From Gemmobacter caeni (lineage in GTDB: Bacteria > Pseudomonadota > Alphaproteobacteria > Rhodobacterales > Rhodobacteraceae), in the NCBI RefSeq assembly GCF_003054195.1, contig NZ_QBKP01000023.1, positions 1-57,860 on the forward strand: a DNA stretch of 57,860 nt, written 5' to 3'. Position numbers and translations under genes: made by a program. This document shows, in pieces, positions 20,834 to 31,166 of the stretch (the first letter of the stretch is position 1; every line of letters begins with the position of its first letter). A model generated the notes under the pieces. The model saw only the letters and a list, made by a program, of their open reading frames with translations. It was not told where the DNA came from and searched no databases.

Positions 20834-22921
20834 ATGCAGCAGACAGTCTCATGGATCGGCAAGGCGATGGCGCGGCGCGAAGATGCGCGGCTGCTCAAAG
20901 GCGCGGGCCGTTTCGTTGACGACCATCAGCCCGAGGGCTGCCTTTTCCTGGAATTTCTCCGCAGCCCCTATGCAGCGGGGCGGATCACCGATCTGGATGT
21001 CTCGGAGGCGGCCGTGGCAGAAGGCGTGATCGCCGTGCTGACCGCCGCAGATTTTGCCGGGCTGGGGCAGGCGGCCGTGAATGCGCTGCTGCCCGGCGCC
21101 GAGGTGCATCCGCTGGAGCCGCTGGCCTCGGGCCGGGTGAAGGCGGTCGGTCAGGCCATTGCCGCCGTGATCGCTGAAACCCGCGAGGCCGCGCGCGATG
21201 CGGTGGAACTGATTGCCTTTGACATCGCAGAAGAGCCGCTGGCCATCCGCCGGGTGCTCCGTCACCGCTGGCAATCCGGCGTGCCGCAGACCGGGCGCGA
21301 GATTTCGGTGCAGCTTGACCATGCGCTTGTCGCCCCGATGGCGCTGGAGCCGCGCGCGACGGTGGCGCTGCCCGAGGGCGCGGGGCTGAGGGTGCATCTG
21401 TCCACCCAGACGCCGCAGCGCTGCCGCACCGATCTGGCCGCGATCCTTGGCCTTGCGCCCAGCGCGATCCGGGTCCTGACGCAGGATGTGGGCGGTGCGT
21501 TTGGCGGCAAGGCGTCCCTGATGCCCGAGGATGCGGTGGTGGCGCTGGCGGCGTTACGGCTTGGCCGTCCGGTGAAATGGACCGCCGCCCGGTCCGAGGA
21601 GTTTCAGGCGGCGACGCAAGGACGTGGCGGTGAAACCCGCGCCGTGCTGACGCTGGATCATCAGGGCGTGCCTGTTGCACTGTCGGCAGAGCTGCGCTTT
21701 CCGCTGGGCCACTGGATGCCTTATTCAGCGCTGGCGCCGCTCCGCAATGCGGGGCGCATCCTGCCCGGTCCCTATGCGATCGAGGCGGTGGATATCGAAG
21801 CGCAGGCGCATCTGACGCCGGGCGCTGCCGTCAACATCTATCGCGGCGCAGGGCGACCCGAAGCGGCGATGTTGATGGAGCGGCTGATCGACAAGGCGGC
21901 GCAGGCGCAGGGCCTTGATCCGCTGGAGATGCGGCGCCGCGCGCTTTATCGCGGTGCCTTTCCGCGCGCGACGCCGACGGGTGAGGCGATCTGTTCCGGT
22001 GATTTCGCGGCGCTGCTGGACCGCCTGGAACGCGAAGCCGATTACGCGGGCCTACGGGCGCGTCAGGCTGAGCGTCGCGCGAAGGGCGCGGTCTGCGGCC
22101 TTGGCCTCGCGCTCTATATCGAGCCCTGCGGGCAGGGCTGGGAAAGTGCCGAATTGCGGCTGGAGGCTGATGGTACCTTCACCGCGCTGACCGGATCGTC
22201 GGCACAAGGGCAGGGGCGTGAAACCGCCTTCGCGCAGATCGTGGCAGAGATCATGGGCGTGACCCCTGACCGCGTGCGTGTGGTGCAGGGCGATACCGAG
22301 GCGGTGCCCGAAGGCATCGGTGCGCTGGCGTCGCGTTCGACCGCCATCGGCGGCACCGCCATGGCCCGCGCCACTCGGCGGATGCTCGACCAGCTTGGCC
22401 CGCGGAATGACTGGTCGGGTATCGGCCCGGTTTCGGTCAGGGAACGCTATGAGGCGCCGGGCGAGGCCTGGGCCTCGGGTGCGGTTCTGGCCGAAGTGGC
22501 AATCTGCCCCGATACCGGCCATCTGACGGTCGAGGGGATCACTTGGGTCGATGATGCGGGGCGTGTGCTGAACCCGATGCTGGTGCAGGGCCAGCTGATC
22601 GGTGGTCTGGCCCAGGGCCTTGGCGCCGCTACTATGGAACGTATGGCTTATGCCGACGGCCAGTTACTGACCGGCAGCCTGATGGATTACGCGGTGCCCC
22701 GCGCCAGCGACATGCCGCCCGTGCGGCTGATCAGCCAGCCCCTGCCCAGCACCGCCAACGAGATGGGCTTCAAGGGCGTGGGTGAGGCCGGTTGCATCGG
22801 CGTGCCCGCCGCGCTGCTGAATGCGGTGCAGGATGCGCTGTTGCCCTTCGATGCCCCTGATCTTTCACTTCCGCTGACGCCGGAAAAACTCTGGCGCGCC
22901 ATGACAGGACTTGAGCCATGA
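20834..22921 (+). CDS. Molybdenum hydroxylase catalytic subunit (xanthine dehydrogenase/aldehyde oxidase large-subunit family)
   Basis: A 695-residue molybdopterin-binding subunit. The ATG at 20834 has CGGAGGATCGG upstream. The N-terminal ~110 residues form the Ald_Xan_dh_C-like domain (GRFVDDHQPEG, LRSPYAAGRI). The Mo-cofactor domains include QDVGGAFGGK, NIYRGAGRPEA, GSSAQGQGRETAF and, near the C-terminus, GFKGVGEAGCIG, whose Glu is the catalytic base. All catalytic motifs are present, so it should be active. It is somewhat shorter than the 750-800 residues typical of CO dehydrogenase or aldehyde oxidase large subunits. The usual FAD and 2Fe-2S subunits are not beside it. It overlaps the next gene by ATGA, and a CoxG-like gene lies further down the same cluster. 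The substrate (aldehyde or N-heterocycle) is unknown. Confidence 0.88.
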   Translation: MQQTVSWIGKAMARREDARLLKGAGRFVDDHQPEGCLFLEFLRSPYAAGRITDLDVSEAAVAEGVIAVLTAADFAGLGQAAVNALLPGAEVHPLEPLASGRVKAVGQAIAAVIAETREAARDAVELIAFDIAEEPLAIRRVLRHRWQSGVPQTGREISVQLDHALVAPMALEPRATVALPEGAGLRVHLSTQTPQRCRTDLAAILGLAPSAIRVLTQDVGGAFGGKASLMPEDAVVALAALRLGRPVKWTAARSEEFQAATQGRGGETRAVLTLDHQGVPVALSAELRFPLGHWMPYSALAPLRNAGRILPGPYAIEAVDIEAQAHLTPGAAVNIYRGAGRPEAAMLMERLIDKAAQAQGLDPLEMRRRALYRGAFPRATPTGEAICSGDFAALLDRLEREADYAGLRARQAERRAKGAVCGLGLALYIEPCGQGWESAELRLEADGTFTALTGSSAQGQGRETAFAQIVAEIMGVTPDRVRVVQGDTEAVPEGIGALASRSTAIGGTAMARATRRMLDQLGPRNDWSGIGPVSVRERYEAPGEAWASGAVLAEVAICPDTGHLTVEGITWVDDAGRVLNPMLVQGQLIGGLAQGLGAATMERMAYADGQLLTGSLMDYAVPRASDMPPVRLISQPLPSTANEMGFKGVGEAGCIGVPAALLNAVQDALLPFDAPDLSLPLTPEKLWRAMTGLEP

Positions 22922-23871
22922 AATATACCCGTGAAACCGCCAAATCCCACGCTTTCGCCCATATGCGCGGCATCTGGGCAGCGGCGCTGATGCCGTTCCG
23001 CGAGGATCTGTCGATCGACGAGGATGGCTTTCGCCGCAACATGGATCACTGGATCGAGGATCTGGGAATCGACGGCTTCTTCATCGCTGGCAAGCAGGGA
23101 GAGTTCTTCTCGATGTCGCTGGACGAGCGCAAGCGCAGCTTCGACCTTGCGGTGGAGGCAGCAGGCGGCCGCGCGCAGACGATCATGTCCTGTTCCGATC
23201 AGAACATGGATGTGGTGATTGATCTGGCGAAACACGCGCAGGCCTGTGGCGCCGACTACATCGTCGTCCACGCGCCGATTCTGCATTTCTTCAAGGAACA
23301 GGATGAAACCCTGCTGCGCTATTACGAAACCATCGCCAGCAAGGTGGACATCGGCATTGCCCTGTGGAGCCACCCGGACAGCGGCTATCTGATGAGCCCG
23401 CAGCTTTGCAACCGGCTGGCCGACATCGAAACCGTGGTGGCGATCAAATATTCCGTCCCGCGCGAGATGTATGCCGAACTGACCCGGCTGGCCGGCGACC
23501 GCATCATCGTCTCTACCGCGTCAGAGGAGGAATGGCTGGACAATATCCTTGAGCTGGACTGGCGGCTCTACCTGTGTTCCTCGCCGCCCTATCTGATCCA
23601 GACGAAGAACGACCGGCGGATGCGGCAGTATACAGACCTCGCTTTTGCCGGAAAGGCAGGGGAGGCGCGGGCGATCCGTGACAGCCTCGACCCCGTGCGC
23701 CATGCGCTGAAATCCACCCGTCCGGCGGAAAAGCCGCACAGCCACCAGAAGTACTGGCAGGATCTGCTGGGCCAGACCGGCGGCCGCGTGCGCCCGCCCT
23801 GCCTTGAACTGACCGAAGATGAGAAACGCGCGACCCGTGCGGCCTTTGAAGCCTGCGGCCTGAAACTCTGA
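22918..23871 (+). CDS. Divergent DapA-family (dihydrodipicolinate synthase superfamily) lyase/aldolase
   Basis: A 317-residue class I aldolase-type barrel. Lys177 in VVAIKYS is in the position of the Schiff-base lysine. Residues that define true dihydrodipicolinate synthase are changed: the GTTGE loop reads GKQGE (58-62), the tyrosine region reads [10 protein letters not shown], and the YN-P segment reads LWSHPDSG. It is therefore unlikely to make lysine. Pyruvate-forming hydratase-aldolases and sugar-acid lyases belong to the same superfamily, and cleavage of a ring-opened aromatic intermediate would fit the neighbours. It overlaps the molybdenum subunit gene by four bases and lies 16 bp before the dioxygenase. 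Confidence 0.85.
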
Positions 23872-30321: not shown

Positions 30322-31166
30322 TCCATCAGGAAGCAGAGTGGGCGCGGGACAGGCTGGAGGCTGATTACACCGCGCGGGACTGTTGCACGACCGAGGCCTT
30401 CGAGGCGACGATCCGGGCCTATGCCGATTCAAGTGCGGCGGCGCGTGCCACGCTTCCCTGTCAGTCCGATCTGCTTTTTGATGAAACGACCGGGCAGCGG
30501 CTGGATCTGCTGGGCGCGGACCCGGCCTCGCCACGACCGCTGATGGTTTTTGTACATGGCGGCTACTGGCGGGCGCTGTCGAAGGGGCATTCGACCTTCG
30601 CGGCACCTATGCTGGCGGCGCAGGGTATCGCAACTGCCGCACCGGATTACCGGCTGGCACCTGATGCCAGCATTGTCGAGATCGTGCATGACGTGCGTCA
30701 GTCCATCGCCTGGCTCTGGCACAATGCGGCGGATCTCGGGATCGACCGGCGCCGGATCGTCGTTGCGGGCAGTTCCGCAGGCGGGCACCTGGCCGGGGCG
30801 CTGGCTGCACCGGACTGGCCGGCACGCTACGGGATGCCCACCCATCCGCTGCACGGGGCGTTGCCAATCAGCGGGTTGTTCGAACTCGCACCGCTGGCGG
30901 CCATGCATGTGCAGGACTGGATGAACTTCACCCCCGATCAGATCGCCGGTTGCAGCCCGATGCGGCATTTGCCGCCCGCTGGCATGAAGCTGGGTGTCGC
31001 TGTCGCCGAGCAGGAGACGGCGGGGTTCCATCGCCAAAGTGCGGCTTATGCCGAGGCGACCGGCGCACCGCTGCTGCAGGTGACGGGACGGCATCATTTC
31101 GATGTGATCCTTGATCTCTGCGCGCCGCAGACCCCGTTGTCGCGGATGCTTTTGTCCCTGTTCTGA
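30318..31166 (+). CDS. Alpha/beta hydrolase, kynurenine formamidase-like
   Basis: A 282-residue serine hydrolase. HGGYW (about residues 76-80) is the oxyanion-hole motif, VVAGSSAGGHLAG contains the nucleophile elbow G-S-S-A-G, and GRHHFDVI near the C-terminus supplies the catalytic His. This pattern matches eukaryotic-type kynurenine formamidases and related esterases. Formamidase activity would suit a kynurenine/3-hydroxyanthranilate locus, but kynureninase and kynurenine monooxygenase are absent, so an ester or amide of the imported compound is equally possible. It is the last gene of the cluster; no clear terminator is visible in the 73 bp before the next gene. Confidence 0.85.
   Translation: MIHQEAEWARDRLEADYTARDCCTTEAFEATIRAYADSSAAARATLPCQSDLLFDETTGQRLDLLGADPASPRPLMVFVHGGYWRALSKGHSTFAAPMLAAQGIATAAPDYRLAPDASIVEIVHDVRQSIAWLWHNAADLGIDRRRIVVAGSSAGGHLAGALAAPDWPARYGMPTHPLHGALPISGLFELAPLAAMHVQDWMNFTPDQIAGCSPMRHLPPAGMKLGVAVAEQETAGFHRQSAAYAEATGAPLLQVTGRHHFDVILDLCAPQTPLSRMLLSLF

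Follow-up and report, generated by a model that had tools for sequence, protein, structure and literature searches.

A conserved gene cluster around 3-hydroxyanthranilate dioxygenase and a divergent DapA-family protein in Gemmobacter caeni and other Alphaproteobacteria: a possible route without ACMS decarboxylase

3-Hydroxyanthranilate and its ring-cleavage product 2-amino-3-carboxymuconate semialdehyde (ACMS) occupy a central place in tryptophan breakdown and in the formation of quinolinate. A stretch of 57,860 nucleotides of Gemmobacter caeni (contig NZ_QBKP01000023.1, positions 1 to 57,860, hereafter called the window) carries at positions 20834-31166 an operon in which the gene for a 3-hydroxyanthranilate 3,4-dioxygenase (HAO) is accompanied by genes for a divergent enzyme of the DapA/N-acetylneuraminate lyase superfamily (here called DapL), a NadX-like L-aspartate dehydrogenase family protein, and the large subunit of a molybdenum hydroxylase (CoxL type). 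Computational comparison of this operon with related loci indicates that these genes very probably belong to a coherent 3-hydroxyanthranilate module that works without ACMS decarboxylase (ACMSD). What is new here is that the oxidase position of the module is held by either an NAD aldehyde dehydrogenase (ALDH) or the molybdenum subunit, and never by both, in the 124 stretches compared. The existence of the module is well supported by gene content, and its chemistry is deduced from the sequences. It is possible, although doubtful, that it represents an undescribed alphaproteobacterial lower pathway, in which the aldehyde group of ACMS is oxidized, the C7 compound is cut directly into a C4 compound and a C3 semialdehyde without decarboxylation, and the molybdenum large subunit has repeatedly been exchanged with the NAD-dependent dehydrogenase.

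If this is true, alphaproteobacterial genomes, probably numbering in the hundreds, would have to be annotated differently because of a widespread route that skips ACMSD (a relative of the lyase is encoded in 310 stretches, and 80 of these were examined). Such a route would account for the fate of 3-hydroxyanthranilate derived from tryptophan, quinolones and perhaps other compounds in soil and marine bacteria. It would also be an example from nature in which a molybdenum hydroxylase and an NAD-dependent dehydrogenase replace each other. No published description of a HAO-DapL-NadX cluster was found in a literature search in which many terms matched unrelated papers and from which subscription literature was mostly absent.

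Conservation of HAO, DapL and NadX

A collection of species genomes was scanned with the lyase, and the best 80 of the 310 stretches encoding a relative were examined (46 from Hyphomicrobiales, 28 from Rhodobacterales and 6 without a named order). In 78 of these 80 loci a HAO gene lies within 600 bp of the DapL gene on the same strand, and given this adjacency the gene content of the operon is beyond chance. The exceptions are a contig that stops just past DapL (L062) and a locus without a HAO match (L101). The second survey covered 394 genomes of the family to which G. caeni belongs, with thresholds of E≤1e-10 for HAO and E≤1e-60 for DapL. HAO was found in 44 genomes and DapL in 42, all of which fall within the 44; the two HAO genomes that lack DapL carry a distant HAO (29% identical in G128, 46% in G379). 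In several genomes, for example G031, G038, G073 and G389, both genes are present even though they are on separate contigs. Of the 42 DapL genomes, 41 carry NadX; the one that does not (G220) is 75% complete. DapL is a near-obligate partner of HAO, and the eleven-gene operon is widely conserved. An earlier reading of this DNA, made by a model from the letters alone (the original prediction), had proposed a pathway built around the dioxygenase that should be recognizable by conserved co-occurrence of its genes, and both surveys strongly bear this out.

By profile, the dioxygenase of the window is a bona fide 3-hydroxyanthranilate dioxygenase, exceeding both curated cut-offs (TIGR03037, 258 against 146 bits; NF009763, 272 against 220 bits) and containing all of the motifs YHDD, VEEFF, VRHSP, CFEC and CPNC. 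The set of metal ligands that had been claimed for it is indeed complete: the His, Glu and Cys residues of the metal-ligand and second-site motifs are kept across 109 aligned sequences, where we take His/Glu/His to be the metal ligands and the Cys motifs to form a second metal site.

DapL, which database records name "dihydrodipicolinate synthase family protein", combines a TIM-barrel fold with membership of the Pfam family of dihydrodipicolinate synthase (DHDPS). Its predicted structure (pLDDT 90.5) compares to solved chains of N-acetylneuraminate lyase (NAL) with a TM score of 0.82, and these lyases are also its best solved relatives by sequence, with 20-25% identity to the 50 solved NAL and DHDPS chains listed. 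All of 37 aligned sequences share the Schiff-base lysine K177, which is conserved in at least 97% of a larger set of 118. In the alignment, K59-Q60 occupy the position of the Ser/Thr pair of the relatives, and W150, followed by S151-H152, the position of the catalytic Tyr; for the Schiff-base Lys, the Ser/Thr pair and the Tyr we assume the roles generally ascribed to them in DapA and NanA. Because the active-site Tyr and the Ser/Thr pair are replaced, DapL is a member of the superfamily but neither DapA nor NanA. It shares fold and Schiff-base lysine with DHDPS and NAL, but differs in these replacements and in invariant motifs of its own. As many as 130 positions are conserved in at least 97% of the 118 sequences, and near-invariance of so many residues is as expected for one specialized enzyme. 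Many of the invariant residues are basic, as a poly-carboxylate substrate might need.

Exchange of aldehyde dehydrogenase and molybdenum subunit

When the proteins of the 80 loci and the window were clustered, an ALDH family was present in 51, the molybdenum subunit in 21, both in none and neither in 9. A tblastn tally over 124 stretches with DapL (the 80 loci, family genomes and plasmids; some are from the same species, and 117 remain once identical DapL sequences are removed) gave 70 with ALDH only, 46 with CoxL only, none with both and 8 with neither. Among these eight, two stretches are short (L042, L074) and two are Phaeobacter-type loci (L161, L175), a type in which the ALDH stands beside HAO. 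Of the 42 DapL genomes, 18 possess an ALDH ortholog (64-76% identical), always on the same contig as DapL or HAO and near it; in 23 the locus carries CoxL (the window and 22 stretches that were fetched). The ortholog is found in none of those 23; CoxL elsewhere in the ALDH genomes was not searched. In the remaining genome (G325) the contig stops at DapL, so that the oxidase type cannot be judged. A paralogue with 54% identity lies far from the cluster in one ALDH user (G135) and one CoxL user (G175). The window operon contains no ALDH.

On the DapL tree 13 changes between the two oxidase labels are inferred, at least 5 of which are forced by well-supported branches; the HAO tree, which carries a long-branch warning, gives 17 changes with 3 forced by supported branches. 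An independent-pairs test was degenerate, since the two labels were coded as alternatives, and is not used as evidence; nor is a hypergeometric figure that takes no account of relatedness. The repeated exchange is best explained if both enzymes carry out one reaction that turns an aldehyde into an acid, and we consider it likely that the molybdenum subunit replaces the dehydrogenase in the same step. The dehydrogenase is carried by more stretches, and the molybdenum enzyme is for that reason not essential to the pathway. Two roles had originally been suggested for the molybdenum enzyme. Oxidation of the ACMS aldehyde gains support, because alternation with an aldehyde dehydrogenase is what such a reaction predicts, and the same exchange speaks against hydroxylation of quinolinate.

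The molybdenum subunit has a conserved VGEAG motif, and a YRGAGR sequence where CO dehydrogenase has its loop; we take the former to be the proposed catalytic Glu motif and the latter to be the counterpart of the CO dehydrogenase loop. An identity as CO dehydrogenase was rejected, as the protein scores just 315 of 991 bits with TIGR02416 and the loop is not of the CO type. Quinoline 2-oxidoreductase (1t3q) is among its solved relatives. It has the MoCo domains and the proposed Glu motif in common with CoxL/form II-like molybdenum hydroxylases, but in most examined loci it is an orphan that alternates with an aldehyde dehydrogenase. Genes for the small and medium (FeS/FAD) subunits are absent from the window operon. 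Only 4 of the 46 CoxL stretches, some of which are short, have a medium subunit beside CoxL; in these four (L060, L072, L078, L083) medium and small subunit genes lie downstream of NadX, and L141 and L146 also have small-subunit-like genes close to the cluster. The genome of G. caeni has four Fer2_2 genes elsewhere, and neither tblastn nor inspection of the open reading frames (ORFs) around them revealed an orphan pair of small and medium subunits. The nearest partners, which have 51% and 55% identity to the subunits of a Nitratireductor cluster, are encoded in a separate CoxG-S-L-M-like locus, and the orphan may borrow these. A homologue of that medium subunit (49-57%) is present in 39 of the 42 genomes, in ALDH and CoxL users alike, and does not discriminate between them.

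Proposed route and alternatives

The operon may serve uptake and catabolism of 3-hydroxyanthranilate, or of a formyl, acyl or larger precursor from which it would be freed by the alpha/beta hydrolase, without involvement of ACMSD. HAO would open the ring to give ACMS, as expected from its family. Next, the C6 aldehyde of ACMS would be oxidized to 2-amino-3-carboxymuconate, by the NAD-dependent aldehyde dehydrogenase in most examined loci and by the orphan molybdenum subunit in the window, as their mutual exclusion suggests. Either ACMS or its oxidized form could be attacked by a Schiff-base enzyme, with decarboxylation at C3 or hydration and retro-aldol cleavage as outcome. In the proposed route DapL would attack the C1-C3 part, an oxaloacetate imine with a side chain at C3, and hydration followed by retro-aldol cleavage would yield a C4 compound (oxaloacetate or iminosuccinate) and malonate semialdehyde. 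NadX could then convert iminosuccinate, or oxaloacetate and ammonia, to aspartate, and malonate semialdehyde could enter acetyl-CoA through the housekeeping methylmalonate/malonate semialdehyde dehydrogenase MmsA, for which 38 of the 42 DapL genomes have a match over the cut-off. This mechanism as a whole is quite possible, although we would stop short of calling it probable, and cleavage into C4 plus C3 is assigned to DapL tentatively.

The classical route onward from ACMS has been described (PMC5817917). The onb and nba clusters of 2-nitrobenzoate degraders encode HAO, ACMSD, an aminomuconate semialdehyde (AMS) dehydrogenase, a deaminase and further enzymes leading to acetyl-CoA (PMC5817917, PMC7842363). 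Compared to these clusters, and to a Caballeronia cluster (L160), the module has the same initial dioxygenase and also includes an aldehyde oxidation, in this case by an ALDH resembling succinate semialdehyde dehydrogenase or by the molybdenum subunit. ACMSD was not found, nearly all stretches lack the deaminase/hydratase set, and DapL and NadX are present instead.

The query for ACMSD was the amidohydrolase that adjoins HAO in the Caballeronia cluster, called ACMSD by position and size. It had no match at E≤1e-5 in 35 of the 44 HAO genomes, including that of G. caeni, and reached at best 33% identity in the others, in a search without a control genome of known ACMSD content; none of the 131 stretches of the tally had a match either. 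The absence of ACMSD noted for the operon can in this way be extended to the genome and to the related loci. In some Rhodobacteraceae an ORF between DapL and HAO could have been a hidden ACMSD, but by eye it resembles a DMT-type transporter in six of six loci (L139, L151-L154, L156), and in Phaeobacter records a gene beside DapL is annotated as a DMT transporter. A RidA-like gene occurs in 1 of the 131 stretches, and mhpD-like and decarboxylase-like genes occur in 3 each, for both of them the same three loci of Lutimaribacter. The aldolase of the last step, 4-hydroxy-2-oxovalerate aldolase, exceeds the cut-off in 3 of the 42 DapL genomes, all with strong matches, and has no match in the G. caeni genome at E≤1e-20. 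Most of these genomes do not seem to have the whole classical route from ACMS; the pathway looks like a different one, in which the molybdenum enzyme probably oxidizes an aldehyde.

The main alternative, which is rather unlikely, is that DapL is a non-orthologous ACMSD: Lys177 would form a Schiff base at C2, and the C3 carboxylate would be lost as CO2 to give 2-aminomuconate semialdehyde. The ALDH or molybdenum enzyme would convert this to 2-aminomuconate, and unlinked enzymes would do the rest, possibly by reduction towards 2-oxoadipate. This would fit the lack of a close ACMSD where DapL is present, the geometry of a beta-imino acid would suit Schiff-base decarboxylation, and the ALDH would serve as AMS dehydrogenase. 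A representative ALDH, however, obtains 298 of the 693 bits required by TIGR03216 (hydroxymuconic semialdehyde dehydrogenase), far under the cut-off, and its closest relatives place it in the group of succinate and alpha-ketoglutarate semialdehyde dehydrogenases. The scarcity of the terminal aldolase, for which controls were weak, and of RidA-, mhpD- and decarboxylase-like genes, unlike the Caballeronia cluster, also speaks against decarboxylation, and NadX would be left without a clear role. Cleavage of the oxidized C7 compound is preferred because its C4 product would be a substrate of the NadX family, which would make the conserved set self-complete, and because decarboxylation would leave 2-aminomuconate, for which further enzymes, mostly not found, would be needed.

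It is less probable still that DapL cuts ACMS itself to iminosuccinate or oxaloacetate and malondialdehyde, with later oxidation of the small aldehyde by the ALDH or the molybdenum enzyme. The C4 product would again fit NadX, and the ALDH is nearest to dehydrogenases of short dicarboxylic semialdehydes, but the order of steps is not settled by gene order. According to PMC7842363, ACMS turns to quinolinate spontaneously, so that early removal of the aldehyde is expected. That quinolinate formed in this way is itself an intermediate and becomes hydroxylated by the molybdenum enzyme is very improbable; molybdenum hydroxylases do hydroxylate N-heterocycles and 1t3q is among the relatives, but pyridine hydroxylation is not expected of the aldehyde dehydrogenase that holds this position in 70 of the 124 stretches, and the idea was set aside. 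HAO and NadX are both known as quinolinate-side enzymes, but an operon that feeds quinolinate formation for cofactor supply is hardly credible, since the varied importers, the LysR regulators, the neighbouring catabolic genes and the location on plasmids are in keeping with catabolism.

Several points weigh against the proposed cleavage route, in addition to the missing positive control for ACMSD. With Trp in place of the DHDPS/NAL Tyr, DapL might not follow a standard aldolase cycle. The position of the ALDH nearest to succinate and alpha-ketoglutarate semialdehyde dehydrogenases implies that it could act on a smaller semialdehyde freed by DapL instead of on ACMS. The rarity of a medium subunit beside CoxL leaves the electron path of the orphan assumed. 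Four stretches (L067, L098, L103, L109) have neither oxidase inside the fetched region, and the Paenochrobactrum locus L101 combines DapL, an ALDH and importer genes with no detectable HAO within the stretch. Both trees are quick reconstructions without bootstrap. NadX was tallied in DapL genomes only, so that no background frequency stands beside its near-constant presence, and MmsA is weak evidence because it is a housekeeping gene. In the aldolase search none of the 14 control genomes exceeded the cut-off and Escherichia coli was silent, so that the absence of this enzyme is not airtight; the E. coli control presumably carries the MhpE aldolase.

Gene content and surroundings of the operon

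The eleven same-strand genes and the families originally named for them were all confirmed by ORF analysis and profile searches (Table 1). That they mostly overlap or are at most 20 bp apart also holds, for 8 of the 10 junctions, the exceptions measuring 84 and 66 bp. The mechanical ORF of the molybdenum subunit begins at 20789 (TTG), upstream of the start in the table. DapL, CoxL, the HAAT proteins and the hydrolase score under NCBIfam cut-offs, so that these are assigned at the superfamily level only.

Table 1 Genes of the operon in the window and the matches on which their assignment is based
Protein	Position	Strand	Match
Orphan molybdenum hydroxylase large subunit (CoxL/aldehyde-oxidase type), proposed semialdehyde oxidase	20834..22921	+	Pfam MoCoBD_1/2, Ald_Xan_dh_C
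DapL, DapA/N-acetylneuraminate-lyase superfamily enzyme of 3-HAO loci	22918..23871	+	PF00701, 113 bits
3-Hydroxyanthranilate 3,4-dioxygenase (HAO)	23888..24436	+	TIGR03037, 258.4 bits (cut-off 146); 1yfu, E 6e-73
HAAT-type substrate-binding protein	24521..25678	+	PF13458, 248 bits
HAAT permease 1	25745..26659	+	PF02653; UrtB-like, under cut-off
HAAT permease 2	26663..27634	+	PF02653; UrtC-like, under cut-off
HAAT ATPase 1	27628..28386	+	PF00005, PF12399
HAAT ATPase 2	28380..29081	+	PF00005
NadX-like L-aspartate dehydrogenase family protein	29068..29877	+	NF009828, 251 bits (cut-off 177); NF009827, 235 bits (cut-off 226); aligns to 2dc1 (L-aspartate dehydrogenase)
CoxG-like protein	29890..30321	+	PF06240, 66 bits
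Alpha/beta hydrolase with HGGYW motif, formamidase/arylamidase-like	30318..31166	+	PF20434

The NadX-like protein passes two NCBIfam cut-offs for L-aspartate dehydrogenase and has the conserved motifs, but is placed here within an aromatic-catabolism operon. The HGGYW motif of the hydrolase is conserved in 53 sequences; kynurenine formamidase 4e11 is among its solved relatives without being the closest, and its best NCBIfam match, under the cut-off, is a lipase family. The absence of kynureninase that had been noted applies to the operon and not to the genome, which has this gene on another contig (C1:367671, 303 bits), adjoined by an ORF that by eye resembles tryptophan 2,3-dioxygenase. The genome is near Gemmobacter lutimaris (L032), with 100% identity for DapL and 74-98% for the remaining operon proteins.

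Profile searches place xylose genes on one side of the operon and flagellar export genes on the other. Directly upstream (14700-20709) are a sugar importer, xylulokinase and xylose isomerase. In many relatives this location is taken by a divergent LysR regulator. No regulator adjoins the window operon, and the LysR gene at 12189-13217 is just 25% identical to the LysR of relatives. The minus-strand genes at 6353-12006, TamB-like and of the Omp85 type (TamA-like), are ordinary.

Possible inputs and related clusters

The importer type varies among the 124 stretches, with a HAAT substrate-binding protein in 81, a TRAP large permease in 24, and DMT or tripartite tricarboxylate types in some loci. 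Kynureninase stands beside the cluster in 8 stretches. A Qdo-like 3-hydroxy-4-quinolone dioxygenase, a representative of which matches 3ibt with E 2e-79, is encoded in 18; the count for an FAD monooxygenase with MHPC oxygenase as its nearest relative is also 18. The cofactor-free Qdo-like gene is found near the HAO-DapL cluster at L046:5765-6550 and in L053, L055, L098, L103, L109 and others, often together with the MHPC-oxygenase-like monooxygenase and an HGGYW amidase. Such sets suggest breakdown of quinolones, possibly 8-hydroxyquinolone, feeding 3-hydroxyanthranilate, and Qdo/AqdC 3-hydroxy-4-quinolone 2,4-dioxygenase modules could in general supply (3-hydroxy)anthranilate to the pathway. 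The Qdo-like gene is near related loci but not in the window, and was found in none of the 44 family HAO genomes in a search without positive control. The 3-hydroxyanthranilate could come from 3-hydroxykynurenine, from hydroxyquinolones via a formamide that the HGGYW hydrolase would cleave, or from other aromatic compounds; of the input genes, the window holds the importer and the hydrolase only.

In Lutimaribacter (L063:1-6836, L084, L089) genes that by eye appear to encode Rieske oxygenase subunits, a CoA ligase, a thiolase-like protein and a cyclase-family hydrolase precede the cluster, an arrangement that recalls auxin degradation loci. CoA ligase, thiolase and zinc-ribbon genes are also found near the classical HAO cluster of Caballeronia. 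A protein of about 328 amino acids with a metallo-beta-lactamase fold, related to quorum-quenching lactonases and 4-pyridoxolactonase, adjoins the importer genes in L044, L067, L078 and L083 and occurs in 10 of the 124 stretches. In G128 the distant HAO relative (29% identical, with one stop within the match) and an ACMSD-like amidohydrolase about 6 kb away (G128:C8:1187833 and 1194630) perhaps belong to a different ring-cleavage pathway. In Phaeobacter inhibens (L161, L162) the pathway is plasmid-borne, accompanied by kynureninase and two more transporters, and the plasmid of L162 is typed as conjugative.

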